Shown piece by piece: positions 6,077 to 25,788 of a DNA stretch of 64,000 nt; within the stretch, counting starts at the first letter, position 1; each line of letters starts with the position of its first letter. Under the pieces are notes generated by a model. The model had not been told where the DNA came from, did not search any database, and saw nothing but the letters and a program-made list of their open reading frames with translations. This DNA comes from Rhizobium jaguaris. Lineage in GTDB: Bacteria; Pseudomonadota; Alphaproteobacteria; Rhizobiales; Rhizobiaceae. Position numbers and translations under genes: made by a program. Where the stretch lies: assembly GCF_003627755.1 (NCBI RefSeq), contig NZ_CP032695.1, positions 1,612,001-1,676,000 on the forward strand, in the 5' to 3' direction.

Positions 6077-6553
6077 TCAATGGGTCGACATTGGTTGTGG
6101 CTGGTTCTGACGGCTGCGGGCTGCGGTGAGTTCGGAGGTGGTGTGATTGAGGCGGTCGGCGAGGACGCGCATGATCTCGACGGCCATTTCGGGAAAATCG
6201 CTGAGCAGCTTCAGGAAATGCTCCTTGCTGATCTTCAGCGCCTCAAGCCGTGACGTCGCCTTAACGGTGGCGGTGCGGGAGACGTCGCAGAGGATCGCGA
6301 TTTCGCCGACGATGGAGTTGATATCCACCTCGGCGACTTTGATCTCTCCGGTCGGGCTGTCGACAAGAATATCAGCGGTTCCGGAAAGAACAACGTAAGC
6401 GGCATCACCTTGATCGCCCTGATGAAACAGTGCCTGACCGGCATTGTAGCTGACGCGATCCGAGGTAAATGCCAAAAGTTTCAACTTGGCGGGTGCGATG
6501 CGCGAAAAAATCGGCACCCGCTTTAGCATTTCAACTTCATCTTTCAGAAGCAT
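6077..6553 (-). CDS. Cyclic nucleotide-binding domain protein (no DNA-binding domain)
   Basis: A 158-residue protein that is almost entirely one cNMP-binding fold. The phosphate-binding cassette is intact: VGEIAILCDVSRTATVKA, with E84 for the ribose and R93 for the phosphate. A C-terminal helix and a short Gln/Ser-rich tail follow. There is no helix-turn-helix, so it is not a CRP-type regulator and probably acts on a protein partner. It starts 53 bases after the end of the ABC-like gene and is transcribed with it. The ATG at 6553 has a TGGGGG stretch upstream; a TTG at 6598 is possible but lacks a ribosome site. Control of the adjacent ABC-like protein by cAMP or cGMP is an inference from position. 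Confidence 0.85.
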   Translation of the reverse strand: MLLKDEVEMLKRVPIFSRIAPAKLKLLAFTSDRVSYNAGQALFHQGDQGDAAYVVLSGTADILVDSPTGEIKVAEVDINSIVGEIAILCDVSRTATVKATSRLEALKISKEHFLKLLSDFPEMAVEIMRVLADRLNHTTSELTAARSRQNQPQPMSTH

Positions 6554-6605
6554 GAGCTTCAAACCCCCAGTGTCGGGCCCCAAATACCACCGAAGCAATA
6601 GGATA

Positions 6606-9320
6606 TTACGATAACAGTTCCTTGAACATACCGTTTTTCTCTAAAAGATCGGTGGATGTGCCGCTTTCAACCAAGCTGCCGCGGTCGAACACCAAAACAC
6701 GATCAAACAATTCCGCAAAGCCCGGATTGGACAGAACCCAAACAACCGCTGGTGCGTACTCGCTGTTGCCGACCCCGGTCAGGATCGCGCGGGCGATCTG
6801 GTCCTGGACGCGGTGGTCGAGCGCCGGCAGCGGGCGATTGCAGATAATGTAATCCGCCCGCTTCAGCAAAGCGCGGCCGAGACTGAGTTTCTGCCGCTGC
6901 ACGTTGGTCAGTCGCTTGCCGCCGGAACCGACATCAAAATCGAGGCCGATCGACAGCACGCTGTCCTGCATGCCAAGCCGCTCGAAAACGTCGTACATGA
7001 TGCTGTGGATGCGCTCAGGCGCATCGGCCTGCTGGTGCGCAATCCGGCCGAACAGCACATTATCCATCAATGTCGCCGAAGCGGTGAAGCGTTCGGGATC
7101 GTAGCGCTCGACCACACGGGCCAGGTCGGCCGGGATATGTTCGTGGAACTTCGCGCGCGCCTTGACGATCTTCTCCATCAGCATCTGCGTCAAAAGACCG
7201 AAGCGGTGACGGGGTTCGATATAGGAGAAGCTTAGGCGTATGATGGACACCCGCTCGTCCGGTGTCGCAGCGTCGAAGCCCTTTCCGTTCAGCTTCTGCA
7301 GCAACGCTTCGTAGGTTGGAATATCCTCGGCCGTCATGAAGGTGAGCTGCTGGAAGAAGGGATGATCCGGCGGCAGGTCGGTGAAGAGTTCGACGGCATT
7401 CTCTGCAATTTCCAGACCCATGTCGTAGAGATCGGTATCGAGCCCGGTCTCGGTGAATAGCCGTTGGAAATAGGGATGGGCGGCGAGCTTGCGGTTGGTC
7501 ATCAATGGCCGCTTCAGCGTGCCGAACAACAGGTTTTCGCCGACAGTCGCCTGCGGATTGTAAGCGTCGAATTGGAAAGGCACGACAAGTCCGTCGAGAT
7601 TCTCCTCCTGCAGCCTGAGGCGCAGTGTCTGGCGCAACTCGACGATGCGTGAGGTGAGATCGTCATGCGTCGCCGTGTCGACATTTGAGCGCAGTGCCAT
7701 GTCGAGAATATCTTGCGACATGGCCACGGCATCGAGGACAGGACGGATAGCCGCATAGATATCATGCGGGCCGGTGGCACCGGCGGCGGCGTAATCGACC
7801 CAGTCGCTGTTGAGATCGAGTTCAGGGTTGCCGGCGCGACGCGCCTCGGCCATCTGCCATTTGATCTCGTTGGCCGCGACATCATCATAGTCGGCGCCCT
7901 TCAATGGCGCGTGCTTCAGGCCGTAGAGAAGATTGCTGCGCAACGTGCCATGAAAGAAGAATGTTTCCGACGAGGCATAGGCGATGCGTCGTCCCGTCAG
8001 CGATTCCGGCAGTTCCAGCAGGTCGCGGCCATCGATCGCGATGCGGCCGCTATCCGGCCAGACAAGCCGGCCAAACGCCTCGGCGAGGTATTCGCCACCA
8101 GCGCCGCTGTCGCCGACAATTGCCACTTTCTCGCCAGGGTGGATTTCGACCGAGACGTGATCCAGCACGCGAGCACCGCTGTCGTCGACCACAGTCAAAT
8201 TAGTCGCAACCAGCGAATGGGTGATTCGGCCGGCGGGCGCCGGCGAGACAACCTGGATCTTCGAATCGATCAGATCGTCGACACTGAACTGCTCGACCAC
8301 CTGATTATATTTGACCTGCACGTCCTGACGCGACTGATCCCAGTCGATGAGTTCCTTCAGCGGCCCCGGCAGGTCCTTGTATGCGTTGATGACGGCCACA
8401 AGCTGACCGATGTCCAGGCGCCCTTGCAGTGCAAAGACACCGCCGATCGAATAGAACAGGAAGGGCGTGACCTGGGCGAGGAAGTTGTTGATGAACTTCA
8501 CCAGGAACTTCCACTGATAGAGATCGTAGCGGATCGAAAAGATCAATCCGAGACGGGCAGCGATGTCGGCGCGCTCCAGATTGGTGGTGTCGTTGGCATG
8601 GATCGTGCCGATGCCTTCGACGATTTCCCCGACACGCCCGGAAAGCTCGCGCGCAGTCAGCTGCCGCTGGCGGCCGAGCTCCAAGAGTCGCTTGCGCATG
8701 CGGGGGATGACAACGGCTTGCACCGCGACGATGCCGGCGGCAATCATGCCAAGCCAGAAATTCTGCATGATGATGAAGACGAGCGCCGTGATCGCCTGGC
8801 CGCCGAGCAGCGCCGGCGTCACATAGGCGTCGCCGGTAAAGCCGCCCATGGGCTCTACCTCGTCCTTGATCATCGTGGCGATTTCAGCCGGCTTGACCCG
8901 CTTGAAATGCGCCGGCGGGAAACGCAGTACGCGGTCGATGAGCTCGAAACGGATACGGCGCAGCATGCGCTCGCCCAGTCGGCCCTTGTAGGTGTTGATG
9001 TAAAGTTTGAAGAGGCCGTTGAGGACGACAAGTGCCAGAAACACCAGGCTGAGCGCCATCAACATCCAGAAGCGGGTGAGCTGCATGCCTTGATATACTT
9101 CGAAGTGCCCAAGCACTGGCACGTCGAAAGCGATATGCATGAAGGTCTGGGTTTGACCTGGATGTTCGAAACCCTTGCCCTGGATTGGTCCGTTGACGAT
9201 CTGCTTCGGCAAGTCGAAGGACAGAAAGTACGGGATCATCGAAGCCGCGACGATCGTCAGGATCCAAATTTGCTCCAGCCGGGTATTCGACCAGATGTAA
9301 CGCGCTAGGCTCTTTTCCAT
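6606..9320 (-). CDS. ABC exporter-like membrane protein with a degenerate, expanded nucleotide-binding domain
   Basis: A 904-residue protein. Residues 1-345 form a type I exporter transmembrane domain, with hydrophobic segments near 18-38, 84-108, 165-205 and 280-300. The nucleotide-binding domain begins near 368 but every catalytic motif is altered. Walker A reads GDSGAGGEY (403-411), so the Lys is Gly409. The Q-loop Gln is Ser451. The signature is LTNVQ (804-808). Walker B reads YIICNRP, so Asp and Glu become N828 and R829. The switch His is N865. About 320 residues separate the two NBD halves and carry two further copies of the Q-loop segment ending NLLFG/NVLFG (near 579-600 and 736-758). 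ATP hydrolysis by this chain alone looks impossible. It lies between three glycosyltransferases and a cNMP-binding protein on the same strand, suggesting a regulated or structural role in envelope glycan handling. Confidence 0.88.
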   Translation of the reverse strand: MEKSLARYIWSNTRLEQIWILTIVAASMIPYFLSFDLPKQIVNGPIQGKGFEHPGQTQTFMHIAFDVPVLGHFEVYQGMQLTRFWMLMALSLVFLALVVLNGLFKLYINTYKGRLGERMLRRIRFELIDRVLRFPPAHFKRVKPAEIATMIKDEVEPMGGFTGDAYVTPALLGGQAITALVFIIMQNFWLGMIAAGIVAVQAVVIPRMRKRLLELGRQRQLTARELSGRVGEIVEGIGTIHANDTTNLERADIAARLGLIFSIRYDLYQWKFLVKFINNFLAQVTPFLFYSIGGVFALQGRLDIGQLVAVINAYKDLPGPLKELIDWDQSRQDVQVKYNQVVEQFSVDDLIDSKIQVVSPAPAGRITHSLVATNLTVVDDSGARVLDHVSVEIHPGEKVAIVGDSGAGGEYLAEAFGRLVWPDSGRIAIDGRDLLELPESLTGRRIAYASSETFFFHGTLRSNLLYGLKHAPLKGADYDDVAANEIKWQMAEARRAGNPELDLNSDWVDYAAAGATGPHDIYAAIRPVLDAVAMSQDILDMALRSNVDTATHDDLTSRIVELRQTLRLRLQEENLDGLVVPFQFDAYNPQATVGENLLFGTLKRPLMTNRKLAAHPYFQRLFTETGLDTDLYDMGLEIAENAVELFTDLPPDHPFFQQLTFMTAEDIPTYEALLQKLNGKGFDAATPDERVSIIRLSFSYIEPRHRFGLLTQMLMEKIVKARAKFHEHIPADLARVVERYDPERFTASATLMDNVLFGRIAHQQADAPERIHSIMYDVFERLGMQDSVLSIGLDFDVGSGGKRLTNVQRQKLSLGRALLKRADYIICNRPLPALDHRVQDQIARAILTGVGNSEYAPAVVWVLSNPGFAELFDRVLVFDRGSLVESGTSTDLLEKNGMFKELLS

Positions 9321-9551: not shown

Positions 9552-10598
9552 TCACGACGCGTCACGAATGATCGCCGAGGTTCGCTCGGCACCGGTAAGG
9601 TCGATGTCGGGGTTCGACGGCTTCGGCCGCGACAATGCAATTTCCACCGCGTCCACAAGCTGATCGGTCGTCAGGCCCGCTTCCGGCAAGGTCAGCGCCA
9701 GCCCGAGTTTCTCCAGTCGCTCGGCACGCACCGACTGCTCCGTTTCGCCGCCGGCCGTGAACGGAACCAGGATAGACCGGCAGCCAGTGACGAGGAGATC
9801 ACCGACCGTATTATAGCCCGCCTGCGAGATCGACAGTTCCGCGCGCCCCAGCAGCGACGGGAAATCCTTGCGGAAACGGACCAAGTCGACATTGCCGGGT
9901 GCGTCCTTTGCCAATGCGGCAAAATCCTGCTCCGGCAGGTTCGGTCCGGTGATCAGCAACCAGCGACGATCGATCGCCACTCGGCTTGCCGCCTCCAGTG
10001 AGGCACGGATGAGGTCACGCCCAACCGCACCGCCGCCGGCGGAAACGATGATGTCGAAAGTCTCCATCGTTTCCGGCGGCAGGGGCGGGGCGACAAGGCC
10101 GGTATAGGTTATCTTGTCGGATATGGCTGATGTCAGCGGAAACGTCTCCTCCAGCCGAACGAAGCCGGGATCGCCATGGACGAGAACACCGTCGAAGTGA
10201 TCCCGCAACAAAGCCACCGTCTCCCCATCACGCCCTGGCTTCTTCTGTTGCTGCAAGATATCGCGCACCGAGGTGTAGAGCTTCGGCTTGGGATTGGCTC
10301 CGGCGATGGCGTCGAGCAGCGGCAGCAACTCGAAGCGCATTTGTCGGCGGCCGAACGGAAAAGCCTCGATGATGACGACATCGGGCTCAGCCGTCCGAAA
10401 TGCCTCCAGCAGCAGGTCGCGGCGCGCCGACAGGAACTCCTCGCCGGCGGCATTTCCCGTTTGATCGGCGAGTCCCGAAAAGCCGGCACTGCTGGCCACG
10501 ACTGGCGGCAGGGTGACCGAGGTGACATCCGGGCCTGGAAATCCGTTCACTGGCACGCCACCGGTGACGACCGTCACCTGACAGCCGTCCTTGGCCAT
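9552..10598 (-). CDS. Glycosyltransferase, GT28/MurG-like (apparent 5' frameshift)
   Basis: A nucleotide-sugar glycosyltransferase with the GT-B fold. The C-terminal half has the MurG-like donor-site pattern (SQAGYNTVGDLL, then PFTAGGETEQSVRA). From the ATG at 10598 it is 348 residues but lacks the first beta strand and the glycine loop. Those residues are encoded just upstream in the same frame (10599-10688, VFFYVQHLLGIGHLARA), where no usable start codon exists. The natural start is the ATG at 10694-10696, overlapping the stop of the preceding glycosyltransferase, but it is one base out of frame. The gene is thus a one-base frameshift or a slippage product. Its neighbour at 11970 has the matching HDTFGLGHLRRC N-terminus. 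Confidence 0.75.
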   Translation of the reverse strand: MAKDGCQVTVVTGGVPVNGFPGPDVTSVTLPPVVASSAGFSGLADQTGNAAGEEFLSARRDLLLEAFRTAEPDVVIIEAFPFGRRQMRFELLPLLDAIAGANPKPKLYTSVRDILQQQKKPGRDGETVALLRDHFDGVLVHGDPGFVRLEETFPLTSAISDKITYTGLVAPPLPPETMETFDIIVSAGGGAVGRDLIRASLEAASRVAIDRRWLLITGPNLPEQDFAALAKDAPGNVDLVRFRKDFPSLLGRAELSISQAGYNTVGDLLVTGCRSILVPFTAGGETEQSVRAERLEKLGLALTLPEAGLTTDQLVDAVEIALSRPKPSNPDIDLTGAERTSAIIRDAS

Positions 10599-10696
10599 AG
10601 CACTGGCGATGCGGCTGGCGCGCGCGAGATGGCCAATGCCGAGCAGGTGTTGAACATAGAAAAAGACACGCGGGGACGAAGTACGGGGGACCTCAT
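10599..10696 (-). other. Out-of-frame 5' coding segment of the GT28-like gene
   Basis: The ATG at 10696-10694 overlaps the upstream TGA, a typical coupled start, and is followed by a run of five C on the minus strand (five G at 10685-10689). Adding one C, or a -1 slip on the run, joins it to the frame encoding VFFYVQHLLGIGHLARASR and then residue 1 of the annotated product. Homopolymer sequencing error, a true mutation or programmed slippage are all possible. Confidence 0.65.
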
Positions 10697-11952
10697 GCGG
10701 ATTTCCGCCATTGCTCTTCTTTTTGCCACTGCTCCTCGAACAGCCGCGTCAATTGCCGAATACTGGAATGATGGTCGAAATGTTCGCGCACCCGCTTCTC
10801 GGCGGCGTTGCCAAGCCGATGGCGCAGCGCCGGGTCGCGGATCGCCCGTCCCATTGCCGCCGCCAGCGCCTTCGGGTCTTCCGGCGGCACGACGAAACCA
10901 TTCTCGCCATCCGTAAGCAGCTCCGGCACGCCGGAAATATTGGTGGAAAGGCAGACAAGGCGTTGGCTGGAGGCCTCGACCAGAACATTCGGCAGACCGT
11001 CGCGGTCGCCATCCGCCGCTACGCGGCAGGCAAGCGCAAAAAGATCCGCTTGGCGGTAATGCGCCAGCACATCCTCCTGCGCCATCGCGCCTTTCCAGGT
11101 GATGCGGTCACCAATGCCGAGCGTTTCGGCAAGTGCCTTCAACTTCGTCAATCCATCGCCGCCGCCAATATGGATGAAGCGCCAATGAAGATCGGCGGGC
11201 AGCAGCGCCAACGCCCGCAACAGGATATCATAACCCTTCTTCTCCACGGCCCGACCAACACTGAGCAGGAAAACGGGCTCGGATGCCTGCGAGCCGTCAC
11301 GGTGGGAATGGTGCCCAGCAAAAGCGTCGAAGCGGGCGAGATCCAGGCCGTGATAGCTCAGATGCACGCTTTCCGGCACCGGCGTCAGATCACGCATGTG
11401 CTCAAAGCCGCTGCGGGTGCAAGTCACCGTCCAGCGGGCGCGTTCAAGCTTTTCCGACAGCTCCCAGTCTGGTGAGGTCCAGATATCCTTGGCATGCGCA
11501 GAGCAGGTCCAGGGGACGCCTGTCATGATGCTGGCATAGGCCGTCACCGAGGCCGGCGTATGGATGAAATGCGCGTGCAACCACGCACCATTGTCGGGCC
11601 ACTCATGCGCCAGCACCAGCGCCTGGCCGAGGCGGCGTACGCGGTTTGGCGTGATGTCACGCTTGAGATCGGCCCAGAATTGCCTCAGCAGCGGCTTGAA
11701 GCCGGGCTTCTTGATCCCGGCCAAGAAGGCTCGCAACACGCGCAACGGCTCGTTGTGCAGATACTCCGGCAGGTAGACGACCCGCGCCTTGATCTCGTCA
11801 TGGATAGGATGGCGCTTCTTGTCCGTCGGCTTGCGCATCGAGATCAGCGTCAGGTCGAAGCCGGCCCTCTCCAGCCCGAGCAGTTCCTGCGCGATGAATG
11901 TCTCGGACAGGCGAGGATAGCCCTTGAGAACCACCAGGATTTTCTTTTGCAT
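10693..11952 (-). CDS. Glycosyltransferase family 4
   Basis: A 419-residue GT-B glycosyltransferase of the GT4/WcaL-like group. The N-terminus KILVVLKGYPRLSETF is typical of colanic-acid type GT4 enzymes, and the C-terminal donor domain has SVGRAVEKKGYDILLRAL and DGLPNVLVEASSQ, with the E-x7-E pattern partly kept. It transfers a sugar from a nucleotide donor to an envelope or exported glycan; donor and acceptor are not predictable here. It starts 17 bases after the preceding GT28-like gene and ends overlapping the ATG of the next, so the three glycosyltransferases are one operon. Confidence 0.88.
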   Translation of the reverse strand: MQKKILVVLKGYPRLSETFIAQELLGLERAGFDLTLISMRKPTDKKRHPIHDEIKARVVYLPEYLHNEPLRVLRAFLAGIKKPGFKPLLRQFWADLKRDITPNRVRRLGQALVLAHEWPDNGAWLHAHFIHTPASVTAYASIMTGVPWTCSAHAKDIWTSPDWELSEKLERARWTVTCTRSGFEHMRDLTPVPESVHLSYHGLDLARFDAFAGHHSHRDGSQASEPVFLLSVGRAVEKKGYDILLRALALLPADLHWRFIHIGGGDGLTKLKALAETLGIGDRITWKGAMAQEDVLAHYRQADLFALACRVAADGDRDGLPNVLVEASSQRLVCLSTNISGVPELLTDGENGFVVPPEDPKALAAAMGRAIRDPALRHRLGNAAEKRVREHFDHHSSIRQLTRLFEEQWQKEEQWRKSA

Positions 11953-11969: not shown

Positions 11970-13184
11970 CTATTCGGCGACGACCGATAGCGGCGGATAA
12001 TGGTCGCGGTCGTCAAACCAATCGCCGATGATGCGGGAAATATGCACCAGCCCTTCCAGCCGCATGTTCTCGCCGCTCGCCGACGGCGGCGCGCGGGTCG
12101 GCAGACGCTTCAGCGCGGCCGCGAGCTGTCTCGGATCGGCAGACTCCTCCGGCAGCAGCATGTCGACGAGGCCCAGCTCGCTTGCCCGCTGGGCGCGGAT
12201 CAGTTGTTCTTCGCGTGGCCGCGTGCGCGGGATGATCAGCGCGGGCTTATCGAAGGACAGGATTTCGCAATAGGTGTTGTAGCCACCCATGGCGACCACG
12301 CCCTTGGCGCCGGCAATCAGCTCTTCCATCTTGTTGTCGAACTCGATTACCTGCAGACAGGCAATCTTGTTTGCCCGCTCGATCAAGTGGTTGCGCTCCT
12401 TGGCCGGCATATACGGGCCGAGCACGATCAACGTCTTGTGTTGAAGCGTATCGTCTTGCTCGAAAGCGCCGAGAACATCGCTGACGAGATCGGCACCGTC
12501 GCCGCCGCCACCGGTCGTGACCAGAATGTAATCCTCGTCAGGCACATGTTCCGACTTCGTGCCCAATGTGGATACACTGCGCTGCAGGAAACCGACGAAC
12601 TCCATCTTCCGGCGCACGCCCGACGGCACGTCAAGACCGACCAGCGGATCGTAGAAATCCGGCGGGCCGTAAACCCAGACGCGATCGTAGAACTGGTCGA
12701 TCTTCTGGAAGGCGTTGTTCCTCTTCCACTCGGCATCAAGCAGATAAGGGGCGTCCATGACATCGCGCATGCCGAGCACGAGCGTGGTGCCGCGCGCCTT
12801 CAGATATTGCAACGTCTCCTCGACCTCGCCCTTCAGGCCCATCGGCTCCTTATCGACGATGAAGATGTCAGGCTGGAAGGTCTCCGCCGTGTGGCGGATG
12901 ATCGACTGGCGCATCTTCATCGTTTCCTGAAGATCGATATGGCTCGCCATCGACGTATATTCGCCGTCACGCAGCTTGATGACGCTCGGCACTTTCACAA
13001 AATCGACTCGTGCTCGATAATCGAAAGCACCGGCAATCGTCGCACCGGAAATGATCAGGACGTTCAGCCCACGATAGTCTTCAACGAGCGCGTGCGCGAT
13101 GGTTCGGCACCGCCGGAGGTGGCCGAGACCGAACGTGTCGTGACTATACATGAGGATTCGAGCATCTTCTAAGCGCCGCTTCAT
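11970..13184 (-). CDS. Glycosyltransferase, GT28/MurG-like
   Basis: A 404-residue GT-B protein. The N-terminal acceptor loop reads HDTFGLGHLRRC (15-26). The donor domain has TTGGGGDGADL and a MurG-like AMGGYNTYCEILSFDKP followed by RPREEQLIRA. No membrane segment is visible; it probably works at the cytoplasmic face. The ATG at 13184 is preferred to an upstream start at 13211 because TGAGG precedes it and conserved sequence begins immediately after. It is the first gene of the minus-strand glycosyltransferase/ABC/cNMP locus, 101 bases after the peptide-importer operon, with which it might be co-transcribed. Confidence 0.84.
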   Translation of the reverse strand: MKRRLEDARILMYSHDTFGLGHLRRCRTIAHALVEDYRGLNVLIISGATIAGAFDYRARVDFVKVPSVIKLRDGEYTSMASHIDLQETMKMRQSIIRHTAETFQPDIFIVDKEPMGLKGEVEETLQYLKARGTTLVLGMRDVMDAPYLLDAEWKRNNAFQKIDQFYDRVWVYGPPDFYDPLVGLDVPSGVRRKMEFVGFLQRSVSTLGTKSEHVPDEDYILVTTGGGGDGADLVSDVLGAFEQDDTLQHKTLIVLGPYMPAKERNHLIERANKIACLQVIEFDNKMEELIAGAKGVVAMGGYNTYCEILSFDKPALIIPRTRPREEQLIRAQRASELGLVDMLLPEESADPRQLAAALKRLPTRAPPSASGENMRLEGLVHISRIIGDWFDDRDHYPPLSVVAE

Positions 13185-13285
13185 GGGCAAAACCTCAGGA
13201 ATGAAAGTCATTTTCGCGGGTTGTCAGCAAACGACGTCCGCGGCCGCTCTTCGAATTGCAATCCATTTCTTGGCCACGCTTTCCG

Positions 13286-14461
13286 CTATTTGTAGGGATC
13301 GGCCGCGTCGCGCAAGCCGTCTCCTAAAAAGTTGAACGCCAGAATGACCAAAATCACCGGGACCATCGGGAAGAGGAGCCACGGGTAAAATGCAATGACA
13401 CTGACGCTTCTTGCCTCGGTGAGCAGGATGCCCCAGCTGGTGATCGGTGGGCGAAGACCGAGCCCTAGGAAGCTCAGCGCGGTTTCGCCGAGGATCATGC
13501 TGGGGATCGAAATCGTCGCCGTCGCGATCAGATGCGACATGAATCCTGGTACAAGATGACGTCCGATGATACGCGGCGAACTTGCACCCATCAATTGTGC
13601 TGCAAGTACATAGTCTTCTTCGCGTAAAGACAAGAGCTTCGAGCGAACGGCGCGTGCCAATCCGGTCCAATCGAGAATGCCGAGTATGATGGTGATGCCG
13701 AAATAGATGATGATGGGGCTCCAGGTCACCGGCATGATCGCTGCGAGAGCCATCCATAGCGGCAGGCTCGGCAGAGATTGCAGCACTTCGATGACCCGCT
13801 GGACGAGAAGGTCGAAGAGACCGCCATGATACCCCGCCAGCCCACCGATGACTATCCCCAGCACGAAGCTGATGGCTATGCCGATCAACCCGATTGTCAG
13901 GGAAATGCGCGCTCCGTAAATGATGCGGGACAATACGTCGCGCCCGAGCCGGTCGGTGCCAAGCAGGAACATCTGGCCACCGACCGCGGGACAGATCAAA
14001 TGGAGATCCGAATCCACCAATCCCCAGAAGCGATAGGCATCGCCACGACAGAAGAAGCGGATCGGCTGTATGTCTTGCGCGTTGTTCGTATAGACCCGCC
14101 GCAACGTGGCGAGATCAAGGGTCATTTTGCGGCCATAGACGAAGGGGCCGACGAATTCGCCGTTGTTAAAGAAGCGGACCCTCTGTGGCGGCGAATGGAT
14201 AAAATCGACATTGCGGGTGTGCAGGCCATAGGGCGCCAGGAATTCCGAAATCAAGATCGTGCAGTACAGCAGCAGCAGGAAGATGCCGGAAGCAAGAGCA
14301 AGCTTATGCCGCTTGAACTTCCACCACATCAACTGCTTCTGAGAGGCCTTGTAGTAGCGTGCCTGACCGGCCGACATGGCCTCGAACTGCTCCGGATCGA
14401 AGGCGGCAGTGGAAACGTAGTGTTCTAGTGGGGCGCCTGGACGCGGCAGGGGTGCGTTCAT
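13286..14461 (-). CDS. ABC importer permease, DppC/OppC type
   Basis: A 391-residue permease, last gene of the four-gene importer. After a first membrane segment (residues near 52-72) comes an unusually long periplasmic segment (about 75-165) before LLGTDRLGRDVLSR. Then come five hydrophobic helices and the EAA coupling loop (DYVLAAQLMGASSPRII). The ATG overlaps the preceding permease stop (ATGA). The same long insert is present in the permease at 1-954, which marks a subfamily paired with binding proteins above 600 residues. Confidence 0.92.
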   Translation of the reverse strand: MNAPLPRPGAPLEHYVSTAAFDPEQFEAMSAGQARYYKASQKQLMWWKFKRHKLALASGIFLLLLYCTILISEFLAPYGLHTRNVDFIHSPPQRVRFFNNGEFVGPFVYGRKMTLDLATLRRVYTNNAQDIQPIRFFCRGDAYRFWGLVDSDLHLICPAVGGQMFLLGTDRLGRDVLSRIIYGARISLTIGLIGIAISFVLGIVIGGLAGYHGGLFDLLVQRVIEVLQSLPSLPLWMALAAIMPVTWSPIIIYFGITIILGILDWTGLARAVRSKLLSLREEDYVLAAQLMGASSPRIIGRHLVPGFMSHLIATATISIPSMILGETALSFLGLGLRPPITSWGILLTEARSVSVIAFYPWLLFPMVPVILVILAFNFLGDGLRDAADPYK

Positions 14462-15456
14462 TTCGTGCTCCTGCCTTGCAAGCGGATACGCGGATCAAGG
14501 AAGCCGAGGGCGATGTCGGAGATCAATACGCCGATAACGTTCAGGAAAGCGAGAAACATCAGGAACGAGCCAGCGAGATACATATCCTGGCTCTGCAGCG
14601 CCTTGATCAGCATCGGCCCAGTCGTTTCCAGGGAGAGCACGATGGCGGTGATCTCGGCACCGGAGATGATCGACGGTAGAATCGAGCCGATATCGGCGAC
14701 GAAGAAATTGAGCGCCATGCGCAGCGGATATTTCACCAGTGCTCTGAGCGGGTGCAGTCCCTTGGCCCGAGCCGTGATGACATATTGCTTCTGCATCTCG
14801 TCGAGCAGGTTGGCACGCAGGCGGCGGATCATGCCGGCGGTGCCGGCGGTGCCGACAATGATGACGGGAATCCACAGATGCGAGAGGATCGAGCGCGCCT
14901 TTTCCCAACTCATCGGCTGAGACAAGTATCTCTGATCCATCAGGTGACCGATGGAGACACCGAACCAGACATTCGCGAAATACATCAGGATCAGCGCCAG
15001 CATGAAGTTCGGAATGGCGATACCGAGCAGACCCAGGAAAGTCAGGCCGTAATCACCCCAGCTATATTGATGGGTGGCGGAATAGATGCCGATGGGGAAC
15101 GCAACCAACCATGTCAACAGGATCGTCGTCATGGATACCAGGATCGTCAGCCACAGCCTGTCGCCGACGACCTCCGAAACCGGCAGCTGATATTCGAAGG
15201 AATAGCCGAAATCACCGTGCAGCATGCCGGCGACCCAACGGACATATTGTAGGGCCATGGGCTTATCGAGCCCGTATTCGTGGCGAAGATCCTCGATTTC
15301 CTGCAGGTTGGCGGTTTCGCCCTGGGCTTGAAGCTCCGCGATCTGGCTTTCGAAGAAATCGCCCGGTGGCAACTGGATGATGGTGAAGACCAGCATCGAG
15401 ATGACGAGCAGCGTCGGAACCATGACCGCAATGCGCCAAAGAATATATCTAAACAC
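14458..15456 (-). CDS. ABC importer permease, DppB/OppB type
   Basis: A 332-residue inner-membrane permease. It begins [22 protein letters not shown], the standard DppB N-terminal helix, has six hydrophobic segments and an EAA loop (YVITARAKGLHPLRAL). It starts at a GTG that overlaps the end of the binding-protein gene and ends overlapping the next permease, so translation is coupled throughout. It forms the channel with the DppC-type partner at 13286-14461. Confidence 0.92.
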   Translation of the reverse strand: MFRYILWRIAVMVPTLLVISMLVFTIIQLPPGDFFESQIAELQAQGETANLQEIEDLRHEYGLDKPMALQYVRWVAGMLHGDFGYSFEYQLPVSEVVGDRLWLTILVSMTTILLTWLVAFPIGIYSATHQYSWGDYGLTFLGLLGIAIPNFMLALILMYFANVWFGVSIGHLMDQRYLSQPMSWEKARSILSHLWIPVIIVGTAGTAGMIRRLRANLLDEMQKQYVITARAKGLHPLRALVKYPLRMALNFFVADIGSILPSIISGAEITAIVLSLETTGPMLIKALQSQDMYLAGSFLMFLAFLNVIGVLISDIALGFLDPRIRLQGRSTK

Positions 15457-17365
15457 GCGGTTGATCCTCCTTCAGCCAGAAGGTGTCGGGCATATAGACC
15501 CCGAGATAGCAGGTCGGATCGAAACCGTAGAGCGCCTTTTCCGGCATATTTTGCAGATGCGACGCGCGTAGGATCGGCTGCAGGGTGCCGTTGATCAGGC
15601 CAATAGAGAAGACCTGCTGGGTATAGATCGACAGCATCCGATGCCAGATCTCGGCGCGTTCGAAAGAGGACGCCGCGACGCCCCATTTGCCGAGAAGTTC
15701 GACCAGTTCTACCGCATCCGGCAGGTCGGGCGGAACGCCTTGGGTGCCGCGTGAAAGATAATGCATGCCCCAGAGCGGCCATTGCATCTGGTCGTCCATC
15801 GTCGGCGCGAGCTGGCCGGGATTCATGTCGGCTGTTGGCACCCCGTTGTCGAGACCATACCAGATCGACATCAGGATGCGCCCGCCCATGGCGCGGCTGC
15901 GAAAGACGTCGCGTTGCGACACGCGGGTGAAGAGCGCAATGCCGACCCTGCGCCAATGATCGGTGACCAGCTCCAACACATCAGTATCGAGTGTGCTTTC
16001 GCCGGCAGTCTCGACCGTGATCTCCGCCCGCCGCCCGTCCGGCAACAGGCGAATGCCATCCCTGTCGCGTTTGTCGAGGCCGGCCGCATCGAGCAGATCA
16101 TTGGCCTGAGCCGTATCATGGGCAATCCAGGCGGAAGAATATTCCGGCCTATAGAGCGGGCTCTCCGGCAGAACGGTATCGGCACTTTCGGTGCCGAGGC
16201 CGTAGAAGACGGCCATGTTGATCTCGTGGCGATCGATCGCCATCGAGAGTGCCCGTCGTACCCGCACGTCGCGCAGGACATCACGCCAAACGGGATCGGC
16301 ACTATTCAAGTTAGGCAGCAGCGCGACACGCGAACCGCGCGCCACCTTCCAGAGATGGACCTTGACCGGATAGCGCTTCTCCGAATCCTTCAGGAAGGTG
16401 TAGTCGTTGAAATCGATGCCGGTCGCCTGAAGATCGCTTTCACCGGCGCCGGCCTTGGCTGCGATGATCGCCGAGGAGCTGATGCTGAGGATAAAGCGGT
16501 CGATGTAGGGTAGTTGCCGACCGTTTTCATCGACGCGATGGAAATAGGGATTGCGCTCGAACACGAATTGTTCGGCCGGTGGCGCGGTCGTGTTGCGCCA
16601 GGGATCGAGCACTGGCAGGTTGGGGTTTTCCGGCCGGTAGCTGCGCGCCATCTTGGTGTGCAGTTCCGTCCATTTGCGAGCGCGGTTCTCCTGCATCAGG
16701 GCGGAGAGGCGGATTTCGTCCTGGTATTTCTTGTGGAATTGCTTGAGGTAATGAGCAGGGCCGGCAATGACCAGCGGCTGCGGTGCCGCCAGGCTCGGCA
16801 GGAAATTCGGATTGGGTTGATCCCAGGAATAACGCACCGTCAGCGAATCGAGCACTTCGAAACGCGGCAGGTTACCGTGAGGGCGCAGCTCCAACGCACC
16901 GCCGCCCGGCGTCAGCGCTTTGCTGAGAATGACGTCTTCCCACCAATAGCGAAAATCATCCGATGTGAACGGCTGGCCGTCCGACCATTTGTGCCCCTCA
17001 CGCAGCTTGAAGGTGAAAACGGTGTCATTCTCCGTCGTGAAAGATTCGAGGATATCCGGCTGCAGCGTCAGCGTCGGGTCGTAGCCAACGAGGCGGGCAT
17101 AACCGTAGATCGTCATGTAGCGGATATCATTCTGGCTGCCGATGATCGTGCGCACCGAGCCGCCGTAACGGCCAGGCTCGCGGCCCAAGGCTGCCATATT
17201 GACGATGCGCGGCATCTTCGGCAGGCGCTCGGCGAGCCGCGGCATCTGGCCGGACCTGAGCCAGTCGTGCAGGTAGTCCGGCTCGTTGTCTGCATCAGCC
17301 GCCATGGCCGGCAGCGGCAGCATGCTGGAGGCCAATAGGCCAAGAAAGGTTCGACGACTTACCAC
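15449..17365 (-). CDS. Periplasmic solute-binding protein, peptide/nickel family 5, Tat-exported
   Basis: A 638-residue extracytoplasmic binding protein of family 5 (SBP_bac_5). The N-terminus [17 protein letters not shown] followed by AMAADA is a twin-arginine signal with a cleavage site. Family motifs include [20 protein letters not shown] and [14 protein letters not shown]. It is about 100 residues longer than typical DppA, as in YejA/AgpA-like proteins, which can bind sugars or modified peptides. The GTG start overlaps the ATPase stop. The gene order ATPase, binding protein, two permeases is complete, but the ligand cannot be told from sequence. Confidence 0.9.
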
Positions 17366-19263
17366 GTGCGCAGTTCCTGAACATCGGCGTCGCGGCGAGC
17401 GCGCACGAAATGACCACCACCAAGATCGGCGTAGGCGAGATCCACACCTTCATCCTCCGCAAAGTGCGGCCCCCAGCTCTGTTTGGCTGCCGGACCGTCG
17501 GCATTCAACGCAGAGAAATCAAGCGGCCGGTCGAGATCGGGGAAGGGGACCGCGGCAAGCAGCGAGCGGGTATAGGGATGGACGGGATCGCGCAAGATGA
17601 TCTCGCGCGGCGCGATTTCGACGATGCGGCCACGGGCCATGACGGCAATGCGGTCTGCCATGTAGTCGACGACTGCGAGATTGTGCGAGATGAAGAGATA
17701 AGTAAGACCAAGTTCTCTCTGCAAATCCTTGAGAAGATTGAGGATCTGCGCCTGGACGGAGACGTCGAGCGCTGAGACCGGTTCATCGAGGATCAGCAGT
17801 TTCGGCCCAAGCGCCAGGGCACGGGCGATACCGATGCGCTGGCGCTGCCCACCGGAAAAGCTGTGCGGATAGCGGCTCAGATAATGCTGGTCGAGCCCGA
17901 TTGCCTGCATCAGGCCTTTCACCTTCTCCTTGCGCTCGCCGCTGTCGCCATGTCCATGGATCTCGAGGGGTTCGCTCAGGATATTGCGGATCGTCATGCG
18001 CGGCGACAAGGATGAAACCGGATCCTGGAACACCATCTGGATCTTGGTCCTGAGATCCATGAGCTCGTCGCCCTTGACGGCCAGCACATCGATCTTGCCC
18101 CCGCCGTCATCGAATGTCACCGAACCACTGTTGGGTCGGACGGCCCGCATCAGGATCTTGCTGACCGTCGTCTTACCGCAGCCGCTCTCGCCGACAAGAC
18201 CGAGGCATTCGCCACGGCGTATATCGAAGCTGACATTGTCTACGGCGCTAATCTGCAGGCCTGCCTTTCGCCCGAACATGCCGGTTCCCTTGGACATGTA
18301 GGTCTTGGAGAGATTGCGTACGGACAGCAGAACTTCTGGCGCACCATTTGCGCCATTGGTTTTGGCGTATTTCTTCTTGCCGGAGAACGTGCTGAGATTG
18401 ACCGGCACATCGCGCAACGATTTCAGCCGCTCGCCGGGTTTCATATCGAAATGCGGCACCGCCGACATCAACGCCCTGAGATACCGATGCTGCGGCTGCC
18501 GGAAAATCGTCTCGACCGGTCCCGCCTCCATGATCTCGCCGTGATAGATGACCACGACCTCATCTGCCATATTGGCGACTACGCCGAGATCATGCGTGAT
18601 CAGCAGCATGGCCATATTGAACTTCTGCTGCAGGCTGCGCAGCAGGCCAAGGATCTGCGCCTGGATCGTCACGTCCAATGCCGTCGTCGGCTCATCGGCG
18701 ATCAGAAGCGCAGGATTGCAGATCAGCGCCATGGCGATCATCGCGCGCTGACGCATGCCGCCCGACAATTCGAAAGGATACATATCGAAGGTGCGATGCG
18801 GATTCTGAAAGCCGACGAGGCCCAGCATTTCCTCGGTCTTCTCGCGCTGCTCGGCCCTGCTGATGGCAGGATTGTGGATGCGAAGCGCCTCGCTGATCTG
18901 GTTGCCGACTGTGTGCAGCGGCGAGAGCGAGGTCATTGGCTCCTGGAAAATGTTGGCCATGCGGGCGCCGCGAAGCTGGCGCATCGCAGCACTGTCGCGC
19001 GGCAGCTCGAGAATGTCCGTAGTCTGACCATCGAGCGGATCGGTAAAGAGAATACGGCCGGTCGCCTGTGCCGGCGTTGGCAGAATGCCCATGATCGACT
19101 GGCTGATGATCGACTTACCGGAACCGGATTCGCCAACAAGTGCCGTTACCTTGCCGGGCAGCACCCGGAGGTTGGCGCTCTTAACCACGCGCAACTTGTC
19201 CCCGTAGATGGAGAACGAAACGTCGAGGTTCTCAATACGCAACAAATCAGTCCCTGACGCCAT
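17359..19263 (-). CDS. ABC importer ATP-binding protein, two fused ATPase domains
   Basis: A 634-residue double ATPase that drives the importer encoded by the next three genes. Both halves carry intact motifs: Walker A GESGSGKS and GESGCGKT, signatures LSGGMRQR and FSGGQRQR, Walker B LLIADEP and LLILDEP. It is the promoter-proximal gene; GGGAA lies upstream of the ATG. The 160-base gap behind it (19264-19424) should hold the operon promoter, in which I see no recognisable operator. Confidence 0.93.
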
Positions 19264-19424: not shown

Positions 19425-20765
19425 TCACTGGATGAACTTCTCGACTTGCGGGCGGCTCTCGAACTTCTTGGCATCCCGATGCAGCAAGATGACCTGCTCT
19501 GCTTCCGAAAGAACGTCGGCGGCCGCATCGAGAAAGACTTCCGTGGTTCCATTGGCTGTGGTGATCGCCTTTGGATGCACGACCGTAAAGCGCTGGCGCA
19601 CGCCGCGTAGCCTCTCCTCGCCGAGCGTTACCCACTCGCCGCCGGTATAGCCGGCAAACGTTTGGCTCGCGACCACCTCCGTCTGATATTTCTTGGTCAG
19701 CGATTGCAGCCGCTCCACCTCGTTAACGGCGGCGCCGAAAGCGGAGAAGGTCAAGCGATCCTTCAGCCCGACATTGCCGAACATGACGTTGCCGACATGA
19801 AGGCCGATGCCATAACGAACTTCGTTCAGGCCGCGTGTCTGGCGATCCTTGTTGAGAGCGGCAACCCGGTTCCGCGCGTGGAAAACGGCGGATAGCGCCG
19901 CTTCGCAAGCGACCTTGGAGGGGTCCTTATGTCGGCCGCAGGGATAGACGGCGAGGAAGCCGTCACCGAGGAAACTCAAGATTTCGCCGCCGTTGCGGTT
20001 GAACGGCGCAGCGATGGCGTCGAAAAATTCGTTCAGCGTATCGATATAGGCCTGGCGTCCTTCCTTCTCGGCGTAGAGGGTCGACTGACGCATGTCGCCC
20101 ATGACCAGGGCGGCGCGGATCGTTTCACCGTCGCCGCGGCGGATCTGCCCGTTCAGCACGCGTTTACCAGCGTCGCCTCCGAGATAGGTGGTGAGCATAT
20201 TGTTGGCGAGCTTACCGAGTACCGCCATCTTGGCGGCCATGGCGAGATGATTCTGCATGCGCATCAGCGCGCCGATCATTTCCTCGCTGAAACCGCTGAT
20301 ACTGTCGGTCGACCAGGAGCCCATCATTCCCTGGGCGGAACCAGCGCCGAAAGTCTGTACGAAGGCGATATAGTCGGTGATCTTCTCCTTGCGCAAGTCC
20401 TCGAAGACCGGAAATTCAAGCGGCCCGTCAATGTCGACGCGGCGGCGCAGGTGCAGCAGATTGTTGGAGAGCAGATAATAATAGGGGCTCTGCACGAAGC
20501 GTTCCGGCTTGTCGTTTCTATGCCGATAGCCTTCGATCGTCAGCCCGCCGGCGCGCCGCCAGGTGAAGCCGAGCGCGTCATAGAGCGGATGCAGCATCGA
20601 GAAGGTCAGATGCACGCGGGCGATCGGCAGGCCGGACGCGGCGATGCGTTCGCAGAAACCGCGGACGATGCTCTCCAGATTTTCGCCTGTCAGTGCCGAC
20701 TGCGTCAGCCATTCGGCGACCTTGTCGAGAAAAATATCGGAAACACTCGAGTGAACGGTCATCAT
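19425..20765 (-). CDS. Class III adenylate/guanylate cyclase
   Basis: A 446-residue soluble protein. Residues 1-200 are an N-terminal domain found with some rhizobial cyclases and have no assigned function here. The catalytic domain spans about 215-400, with metal ligands D224 (MGDMRQST) and D268 (SFLGDGFLAVY) and the late motif FSAFGAAVNEVERLQ. In that motif Ala replaces the base-selecting Asp or Thr, while N348 and R352 are kept. It probably makes cAMP, but nucleotide choice is uncertain. It is the first of three cyclase-fold genes within 6 kb. Confidence 0.85.
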   Translation of the reverse strand: MMTVHSSVSDIFLDKVAEWLTQSALTGENLESIVRGFCERIAASGLPIARVHLTFSMLHPLYDALGFTWRRAGGLTIEGYRHRNDKPERFVQSPYYYLLSNNLLHLRRRVDIDGPLEFPVFEDLRKEKITDYIAFVQTFGAGSAQGMMGSWSTDSISGFSEEMIGALMRMQNHLAMAAKMAVLGKLANNMLTTYLGGDAGKRVLNGQIRRGDGETIRAALVMGDMRQSTLYAEKEGRQAYIDTLNEFFDAIAAPFNRNGGEILSFLGDGFLAVYPCGRHKDPSKVACEAALSAVFHARNRVAALNKDRQTRGLNEVRYGIGLHVGNVMFGNVGLKDRLTFSAFGAAVNEVERLQSLTKKYQTEVVASQTFAGYTGGEWVTLGEERLRGVRQRFTVVHPKAITTANGTTEVFLDAAADVLSEAEQVILLHRDAKKFESRPQVEKFIQ

Positions 20766-23864: not shown

Positions 23865-25589
23865 CTATGCAAAGCGACCGCTTTCCTCCTTCGGGACGAT
23901 ATAGACGCGCAAAGGCTCGCCGCGGCCGCGCACAGCTATCTCGCGGCTTTCGATACCGGCGATATCAACGCCGGAAAGGCTCGCCACCGGCTCGGAGAAG
24001 ACCAGCGCGCGGTTGAATTCTTTGGCGACGCTTTCGAGGCGGCTCGCCACATTGACGGTATCGCCGATCGCCGTCACGTTTTTGACATTGCCATAGCCCA
24101 TCGAGCCGACTACTGCCGAACCGGTGTGAAGGCCAACGACGATCTCGAGGGGGACCGATAGCTCGTCTGCCAGCTCTTTGCCGAGTTTGTCGATCTCCCG
24201 GATAATCTCGGCCGCCGCCTTCAGCGCCTGACGGTTGGCTTCCTGGGGCGTGGTGCTCAGGCCGAACAGAGCCATGGCGCCGTCGCCGATGAACTTGTCC
24301 ATCCGGCCGCCATTGTCCTCGACGATCCGGCCGACGATCGCAAAATAACGGTTGAGCAAGAAGACGATATCGAAGGGCAGGCGCGACTCGGTCAGCGTCG
24401 TAAAATGGCGGAGATCGCAGAAAAACACGACGATCTCACGTTCGCGACCTGGGCTCGCCGTCTGGCTGTAGACTGGAATGGTCGATTCCGACATCGGCGT
24501 CAAAAGCGGCACGACACTGATCTCACTTGTCGGACGCAGCTGGCAGGCGAGGCGGACGTCCGGTGTGGCGCCGATTCGGTTCAGCGTCTTTTGCTCCAAC
24601 GCCTCGGGCGGCGGCAGTTTATCTCCGCCATCGATGATCTGGACGCGGCAGGTGGAGCATTGGCCCTTGCCGCCGCAGACGGAATAATGCGGGATGCCGC
24701 CGAGGCGGCTTGCTTCGAGCACGGTGAACCCGCGGGGCACGCGCACGACCTCGCCGCTGGCATAACGGATCGCGACTTGGTGCTGACGTTCACGCAGCCT
24801 GCGATGGGTGCGGAAGGCGAAAAGGCCGATGATGGATGCGCTGAAAGCACCGTAGAAGCCGGCGCGATAGGGCCATAAGTCGCTGACCATCCGGCTGCCG
24901 GGTATGGATCCGGTTTCGCCATAGCTGCGCATGTCGCTGTAATAGCCGCCCCGATAACCGCGCTCGTCATCGTGCGCCACCTCATGCGACACCGTTCTGC
25001 CCATGGCGGCGAAACCGAGCAGGGCCAGCACTGGCAAAACGATGGCGAAAGACAGCATGAGGGGCGCAACCGCCGCGTACCAGGAGCGATAGCGCAGCCA
25101 GAAATGAACACCGATGCAGCCATGGATCCAGACGACCATCAGCACGATCATCTGGCGCACGCCGTTTGCCGGCGACGTGATCCAGAGACTGCGGACGATG
25201 GCACGATAGTTGTCGTGGTAGCCGTAGACATCATGCAGGATGCGCGTCCCGATGATGTGGTCGATCAGGAGAACCGGAACCAGCAAACCGGTGACGATCT
25301 GGAAGGCCTCGCCTGCCGGCATCACCAGAGTGCGGCGCTTGTAAAGCATGCGCAAGACAAGGAGGATATGGACGATCAGCGCGCCGTAGAGAAGCACCGT
25401 GCCGACCGGATTGCGCCAGACGGCCATGAACCAGCGTTGCGCATGATCGGCAGCACTCAACGAGATCAATCCGAGGGAATGATTGGCCAGATGCATGATC
25501 ACGAAGACGAAGATGACCAAACCGGAGCCGAGGCGGAACTTTCGCACGAGACGATCGGAGATGAAGGGTTTTCTCGCCTCTGTGGTCAT
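23865..25589 (-). CDS. cyaC: Redox-sensing adenylate cyclase, CyaC type (diheme anchor, 2Fe-2S, cyclase)
   Basis: A 574-residue membrane cyclase with three parts. Residues about 20-260 form a multi-helix membrane domain rich in His (HLANH, LIVH, IDHIIG, WIHGCIGVHFW), like the diheme-b anchor of succinate dehydrogenase. A ferredoxin-like domain follows, with C305, C311, C314 (CGGKGQCSTC) and C349. The C-terminal class III catalytic domain has D392 (FFCDLRHFT), D436 (FIGDGAM) and GDTVNVASRLE. This is the architecture described for CyaC of Sinorhizobium meliloti, a quinone-responsive, redox-regulated cyclase. The ATG at 25589 has GGGA upstream; a GTG at 25616 would add nine residues but has no ribosome site. 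Confidence 0.87.
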   Translation of the reverse strand: MTTEARKPFISDRLVRKFRLGSGLVIFVFVIMHLANHSLGLISLSAADHAQRWFMAVWRNPVGTVLLYGALIVHILLVLRMLYKRRTLVMPAGEAFQIVTGLLVPVLLIDHIIGTRILHDVYGYHDNYRAIVRSLWITSPANGVRQMIVLMVVWIHGCIGVHFWLRYRSWYAAVAPLMLSFAIVLPVLALLGFAAMGRTVSHEVAHDDERGYRGGYYSDMRSYGETGSIPGSRMVSDLWPYRAGFYGAFSASIIGLFAFRTHRRLRERQHQVAIRYASGEVVRVPRGFTVLEASRLGGIPHYSVCGGKGQCSTCRVQIIDGGDKLPPPEALEQKTLNRIGATPDVRLACQLRPTSEISVVPLLTPMSESTIPVYSQTASPGREREIVVFFCDLRHFTTLTESRLPFDIVFLLNRYFAIVGRIVEDNGGRMDKFIGDGAMALFGLSTTPQEANRQALKAAAEIIREIDKLGKELADELSVPLEIVVGLHTGSAVVGSMGYGNVKNVTAIGDTVNVASRLESVAKEFNRALVFSEPVASLSGVDIAGIESREIAVRGRGEPLRVYIVPKEESGRFA

Positions 25590-25788
25590 CCAATCCCGCT
25601 TATATTGCCCGTTCACAAAAGAACAGAAAGCAGTTATCGCCTAGTGATCTAGCTGCAATGCCGCGTGCTGTCGAGGATGCGGCCTTTGAAGCGGGAGCCT
25701 TATTGTCAAGCAACCTGTCGGAATTCGGGCATTTCCCGCACATTTCCGAGCCAAACTATCACTTTATCGTCAACTATTCGCTCACGCC

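Follow-up and report, generated by a model that had tools for sequence, protein, structure and literature searches.

The subject of this analysis is a gene of Rhizobium jaguaris (positions 6606 to 9320, minus strand) on a stretch of 64,000 nucleotides of contig NZ_CP032695.1 (positions 1,612,001 to 1,676,000), hereafter called the window. It encodes a protein of 904 residues that is, judged from its sequence, an ATP-binding cassette (ABC) exporter fold that fails every motif test for a working ATPase that was made. The family to which it belongs is widespread, class-wide and previously undescribed in the open-access literature, and the gene directly downstream encodes a cyclic-nucleotide-binding (CNB) protein. 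We propose, with a probability of about one half, that the exporter-like protein is a CNB-controlled, non-hydrolytic, exporter-derived transporter or sensor that is often encoded beside a glycosyltransferase locus. The original prediction, made from the letters of the window, had suggested a non-hydrolytic scaffold or sensor built from an exporter. The protein is indeed probably non-hydrolytic, appears to derive from an exporter, is under selection and carries a repeated Q-loop segment, but the family-wide CNB partner, which points to a sensor or a gated device, had been overlooked.

Degenerate ATP site and repeated Q-loop segments

The exporter-like gene and its parts are the following.

6606..9320, minus strand: ABC-exporter-like protein with a degenerate nucleotide-binding domain (NBD), 904 amino acids, ATG start (open reading frame (ORF) call; Pfam, NCBIfam and PDB matches)
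8286..9320, minus strand: transmembrane domain (TMD), residues 1-345, with PF00664 at 86-311 (Pfam, family alignment)
8091..8114, minus strand: degenerate Walker A GDSGAGGE, residues 403-410 (residue reading, family alignment)
7599..7997, minus strand: unit U1, residues 442-574, with Q1 (443-468) contiguous with Walker A, and a tail
7125..7598, minus strand: unit U2, residues 575-732, an extra copy with the Q2 motif at 576-601
6807..7124, minus strand: unit U3, residues 733-838, with the Q3 motif at 734-759, then signature and Walker B at canonical spacing
6897..6911, minus strand: degenerate signature LTNVQ, residues 804-808 (residue reading, family alignment)
6834..6851, minus strand: degenerate Walker B, residues 824-829, with Asn828-Arg829 (residue reading, family alignment)
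6726..6731, minus strand: switch region Ser864-Asn865, canonically His-Arg (family alignment)

The exporter-fold domains pass their gathering scores (PF00664, 58.9 vs 28 bits; PF00005, 52.8 vs 25 bits), PF00005 being partial at residues 386-486, and the best PDB matches cover the NBD in two pieces, for example 381-472 and 748-903. The best NCBIfam match is TIGR02203 (MsbA), at 173.5 bits against a curated cut-off of 602, and four relatives score 129.5-213.6 bits against the same model. The protein thus shares the TMD fold and the NBD framework with MsbA-type exporters (TIGR02203; PF00664 and PF00005), but differs from them in its degenerate catalytic motifs, its CNB partner and about 290 extra residues that bring two more Q-loop units.

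The replaced catalytic positions in this copy are Gly409-Glu410 in Walker A, Ser451 in the Q-loop, LTNVQ for the signature, Asn828-Arg829 in Walker B and Ser864 in the switch, and the loss of ATPase activity in this copy is judged from them to be nearly certain. Residue reading bears out the replacements in Walker A, the Q-loop, LSGGQ and Walker B that had been predicted. The predicted loss of the switch histidine stands as well, but its residue had been given as Asn865, whereas the family alignment places the histidine column at Ser864 and Asn865 at the arginine of 'HR'. Likewise, LSGGQ is replaced by LTNVQ, but the signature is better called degenerate than absent because L804 and Q808 are retained.

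The predicted loss of all motifs holds for this copy but not for the whole family, in which many relatives retain Lys409, Glu829 or His864. Three partly overlapping sets of aligned sequences were compared. The first has 79 rows: 69 of the 80 named loci (the best-ranked 80 among 511 relatives), nine listed proteins and the window. The second has 71 rows (65 sampled loci, five listed proteins and the window); excluded from it were L001, which is the window's own copy, the duplicate L074, L062 as a C-terminal fragment, and L061 and L075, which are divergent or partial. The third consists of the 112 of 120 listed proteins that have at least 800 residues. Alignment at the NBD motifs gave no homologue with an intact site, as no row has all five motifs together (0/79, 0/71 and 0/112, in this order here and below). 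Walker A GK[ST] is retained in 6/79, 4/71 and 3/112 rows, the Asp-Glu of Walker B in 2/79, 3/71 and 2/112, Gln451 in 18/79, 15/71 and 37/112, and His864 in 33/79, 19/71 and 74/112. A strict signature, counted as SGG or TGG only, occurs in 0/79, 0/71 and 4/112 rows, with SGA in a further 3/79 and 3/71. In the 79-row set 32 rows have none of the five motifs and the maximum is three; the maximum is two in the 71-row set and three in the 112-row set. Frequent family states are [KR]409, [DE]410, LSxxQRQ, [NS]828, E829 and H864.

In one insert-bearing member (L146, 10001-12637), GKT, LSGAQ, DE and the histidine are present and the glutamine is absent, which makes three of five motifs on the strict count and four of five if SGA is counted as intact. 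It is nested among degenerate relatives, and its motifs are either retained or regained. Motif loss looks stepwise, and most complete in the rhizobial branch. A divergent ORF of 850 residues (L061, 4473-7025) keeps Q2- and Q3-like repeats with a degenerate Walker A and an unrecognisable LSGGQ; partial profile matches similar to it were seen in four more genomes of the order.

The three Q-loop-like segments that had been noticed in the sequence are real internal repeats. Profile alignment of non-overlapping units with hhalign gave E 4.2e-6 for U1-U2, 2.5e-11 for U2-U3 and 6.7e-5 for U1-U3, the last with a probability of only 63.8, and column permutations reached the observed unit score in 0/200 cases for each of the three pairs. 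TMD control segments gave E 0.15 or worse in a run with overlapping units whose self-matches were disregarded. The family consensus reads GRRIaYVGpsaYlFsgTLRDNLlYGL for Q1, aaLVEpFDpdrYNtNATVAENLLFGT for Q2 and rgsVEFFDperYNAAASLQDNILFGK for Q3. Against the ordinary exporters of the genome, U1 matches over the Q-loop stretch only (25 columns, E 6.6e-11), and U3 over 94 columns that span Q-loop, signature and Walker B (E 1.4e-26); the match of U2 is weak (27 columns, E 9.4e-4, above all 60 permutations). The NBD can therefore be read as two normal halves, the first running up to Q1 and the second from Q3, with additional material that bears Q-loop segments between them. That the NBD is split by extra residues had been predicted correctly, but their number is about 290 (Asn463 to Asn754) rather than 320. 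There are weak hints that each repeat also bears a signature helix and a Walker-B-like strand; a longer U1-U3 alignment from the run with overlapping units had E 1.2e-4 and a probability of 55.7. A foreign origin of the insert was rejected: a PDB search with the window's insert gave nothing below E 0.5, and what the insert does match is the Q-loop units of the protein itself.

Selection and distribution of the family

The frame had been predicted to be under selection, and pairwise comparisons agree with purifying selection. The ratio of nonsynonymous to synonymous substitution rates (dN/dS) is 0.050 against Rhizobium sp. CB3171, 0.071 against R. tropici CIAT 899 and 0.185 against R. etli CFN 42. 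In the same order, the TMD has the lowest ratio in each comparison (0.029, 0.051 and 0.096) and the ratio of the insert (0.065, 0.094 and 0.230) is at or near the top, and none of the four copies compared contains a stop codon. A single length of 904 residues is found in 107 of the 120 listed orthologues. Among these 107 rhizobial orthologues of exactly that length, the replaced residues are nearly fixed (A/G409 in 107, E410 in 106, T805 in 107, V807 in 106, N828 in 106, R829 in 106 and S864 in 102), with position 806 variable. Across the family, mean column entropy is 2.19 for the nine catalytic columns, 1.27 for the TMD, 1.24 for the signature region, 1.28 for the Q2 part and 1.35 for the Q3 part. 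D835, Q810 and K811 are conserved at 90% or more, and the charged or polar TMD residues invariant in the 79 rows include R121, R122, R124, R219, R224, R264, K271, K275, N278 and K315.

The genome of the window has one full-length copy. Of 289 genomes sampled from the class, 98 gave matches at an E threshold of 1e-40 (107 match rows, the window's own included), mostly near full length with a few partial or in two pieces. A sample of the phylum gave matches at 1e-60 in 28 of 349 genomes, of which 27, some partial, lie in the window's class, and the sole match outside it is partial. Matches occur on 261 plasmid records, mostly of Rhizobium (143) and Sinorhizobium (80). When the insert region of a relative served as query, 2865 of the 7995 protein clusters scored reached E 0.001; some of these 2865 may be non-members. 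In quick trees, all family rows group in a single clade on long branches, with support 100 for the 71-row set and for the 79-row set. The outgroups were ordinary exporters of the same genome, 12 in the 71-row tree and 10 in the 79-row tree, the latter lacking two long-branched exporters present in the former. Eight loci from metagenome-assembled genomes (L101, L129, L131, L134, L150, L152, L153 and L154) carry the labels Anaerolineae, Competibacteraceae or Gammaproteobacteria; these loci may reflect binning errors or transfer. Searches of the open-access literature found no published description of the family, in line with what the original prediction had said.

The cyclic-nucleotide-binding partner and the gene neighbourhood

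6077..6598, minus strand: CNB protein, PF00027 its only Pfam match, no DNA-binding domain (Pfam)
6263..6307, minus strand: phosphate-binding cassette GEIAILCDVSRTATV of the CNB protein (sequence reading)

PF00027 scores 69.1 vs 27.5 bits in the CNB protein, whose start is likely the internal ATG at 6553, giving 158 residues. Its matches to solved structures include PKA regulatory subunits and SthK (E 1.1e-10). A CNB domain is adjacent or fused to the exporter-like gene in 70 of the 80 named loci (66 adjacent, four fused) and in 57 of the 65 sampled loci (48 adjacent, nine fused), as judged with a search profile that was itself derived from the CNBs of these loci. By Pfam, a C-terminal CNB fusion is present in four of four long members scanned. 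Gene order and fusion make a coupling of the CNB to the exporter-like protein well supported. Three CNB-fused paralogues (L054, L055 and L056) were seen together in one genome (G154).

The cassette was compared in 86 CNB sequences (76 from named loci, nine fused ends and the window), using the pattern of a phosphate-binding cassette. The strict pattern is present in 73, the Glu in 79 and the Arg in 85; among the nine fused ends, five deviate from the strict pattern. The cassette is conserved and the ATP-site residues are lost, and a conserved signal-nucleotide site would therefore lie beside a degenerate ATP site.

Upstream of the exporter-like gene in the window, and on the same strand, lie three glycosyltransferase genes.

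9552..10598, minus strand: GTa, GT28-C-type glycosyltransferase (Pfam)
10693..11952, minus strand: GTb, GT4-type glycosyltransferase (Pfam)
11970..13211, minus strand: GTc, GT28-C-type glycosyltransferase (Pfam)

In the neighbourhoods of the 80 named loci, the GT4-type gene was found in 68, the GT28-type genes in 60 and 61, a His phosphatase in 58 and Methyltransf_17 in 40. In most such loci the glycosyltransferases are divergent from the exporter-like and CNB genes, and in the four fused named loci the glycosyltransferase neighbourhood is present at least in part. For the clustering of neighbourhoods, 57 of 69 stretches could be anchored; clusters 3 and 7, made up of recurrent opposite-strand ORFs that appear to run antisense to CNB and glycosyltransferase genes, were discounted as shadow ORFs. 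A block encoding an Opp-type ABC importer (13286-19263, minus strand) lies between a cyclase gene and the glycosyltransferases; an ABC importer is likewise found in R. etli p42e, and an OppC-like gene in 11 of the 80 named loci.

Further along the window are two genes for nucleotide cyclases.

19425..20765, minus strand: class III nucleotide cyclase, PF00211 (Pfam), a possible source of the CNB ligand
23865-25616, minus strand: protein combining a ferredoxin-type 2Fe-2S domain with a class III cyclase domain

In R. etli p42e a single gene row holds the exporter-like and CNB genes together with three glycosyltransferase genes, an importer and a cyclase; the R. etli CFN42 orthologues of the exporter-like and CNB proteins are RHE_RS24195 and RHE_RS24190. 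Of 146 loci, 14 had a cyclase within the stretch fetched. Genomes with the family are richer in class III cyclases, a suggestive point in favour of the proposal: among those tested, a cyclase occurs in 38 of the 39 that bear the family (median 10) and in 12 of the 16 that do not (median 1), or 2.35 vs 0.54 per Mb. The exception among the 39 is G108, at whose locus (L063) no CNB was seen either. A DUF3095 protein (PF11294; 21113-22318, minus strand), on which no paper was found in the open-access literature, is encoded near the two class III cyclases and near the syntenic R. etli cyclase too.

Proposed function and alternatives

In the proposed mechanism, an exporter-fold membrane protein, presumably a dimer, would act without ATP hydrolysis. 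Its TMD is kept and strongly conserved, charged residues included, and its NBD would have become structural: catalytic positions vary, and the QRQK signature helix, the D-loop Asp and the triplicated Q-loop segment are kept. The role of the Q-loop segment in exporters suggests that the triplicated segment is probably an enlarged surface for coupling to the membrane helices or for docking a partner. Nucleotide input would come from the CNB protein or domain with its conserved ligand cassette, presumably in a physical complex. Binding of a cyclic or related signal nucleotide would alter the conformation of the dimer, and the change would either gate substrate passage or flipping or be relayed to the adjacently encoded enzymes, often glycosyltransferases. 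A narrower version can be offered only tentatively, in which these proteins are transporters or lipid scramblases whose ABC ATP engine has been swapped for a cyclic-nucleotide switch, the two pseudo-NBDs, with their triplicated Q-loop units, serving as a coupling platform that a CNB subunit or a fused CNB domain drives.

The definition of ABC exporters is built on ATP-driven motion. If the proposal is true, the family would show how a pump can be converted into a signal-gated or sensing device, and nature would have provided a test of the roles that the NBD has apart from hydrolysis. It could also be a new output for class III cyclases, which are numerous in many family genomes. The record name 'ABC transporter ATP-binding protein', common for the family, would then be misleading.

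Among known systems, TM287/288, MRP1 and CFTR also tolerate degenerate ATP-site motifs under selection, but they keep one working site, whereas the present family has no complete site, and no ordinary partner was found encoded next to the window's gene. TAP is a further exporter with one degenerate site. SthK, a cyclic-nucleotide-gated channel, is likewise a membrane protein with a CNB domain, but its membrane part is a channel, and pore function is not indicated for the present family by sequence. HetC is an ABC exporter whose CNB domain is needed for function (PMC10986499), and thus resembles the present family in coupling an exporter to a CNB domain. HetC has a C39 peptidase domain, an essential ATPase residue and an N-terminal CNB, whereas the present family has a degenerate NBD, a separate or C-terminally fused CNB and no peptidase domain (no C39 match by Pfam in the 904-residue protein or five relatives scanned).

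Several observations weigh against the proposal. The CNB domain of HetC bound ppGpp and not cAMP (PMC10986499), so the ligand here is perhaps not a cyclic nucleotide. A CNB was found only elsewhere in the fetched stretch in 6/80 named and 3/65 sampled loci, and was not found near the gene in 1/80 named and 5/65 sampled loci, three named stretches ending too early. Lys409 (41/79), Glu829 (48/79) and His864 (33/79) are kept in many non-rhizobial members, some of which may still bind or slowly use nucleotide, and the entropy of the catalytic columns is close to that of loose parts of the NBD (U1 tail 2.09, C-end 2.07). Nine sampled fused loci and a fused gene of Ruegeria have no glycosyltransferase neighbours; the glycan link is therefore not general but appears lineage-specific, and the CNB appears to be the more constant partner. 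The cyclase comparison covered 39/98 genomes with the family and 16/191 without it, taken from the heads of the lists, with four of the twenty listed in one passed over. Cyclase richness is moreover confounded by phylogeny and lifestyle; related genomes are not independent, so that it is no more than suggestive.

The most probable alternative, although still rather unlikely, is a membrane scaffold that organises the adjacent glycosyltransferases and moves nothing. It would account for the conservation of the glycosyltransferase/His-phosphatase locus (58-68 of the 80 named loci), but the TMD is among the most conserved parts of the protein, its charged residues being invariant or conserved at 90% or more, and neither the nine sampled fused loci nor the Ruegeria gene is part of a glycosyltransferase locus. 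A modified site that still binds or slowly hydrolyses ATP is unlikely. Such a site would have an acidic residue for the Walker A Ser/Thr (410 in 59/79) and Asn or Ser for the Walker B Asp (828 in 64/79), with Lys, Glu or His often kept at the frequencies given above, and with GKT, LSGAQ, DE and His in L146; these columns are variable, however, and the rhizobial branch, the window's own, lacks Lys, Glu and His too. Slightly less probable still is that the protein is the degenerate half of a heterodimeric exporter, with an ordinary half-exporter encoded elsewhere providing one working ATP site. Exporters with one degenerate site are well known (PMC7756269), and candidate partners abound in the genome, which has 109 other ABC protein matches, with GK[ST] and [ST]GG in 12 of 17 long ORFs from 13 stretches holding the better matches. 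However, the gene has no ordinary half-exporter as a neighbour in the window, and a second exporter-like ORF occurs in only 2/80 named loci (L109 and L151). The signature needed to complete the site of a partner is also degenerate, as the strict counts above indicate, and the rhizobial form has no catalytic residue at each motif tested. Finally, every catalytic motif is degenerate in this copy, as in an exporter decaying on its way to loss, but decay is effectively ruled out by dN/dS values of 0.05-0.19, the lack of stops in four copies, a mostly uniform length, nearly fixed replacements, a class-wide family and conserved neighbours.

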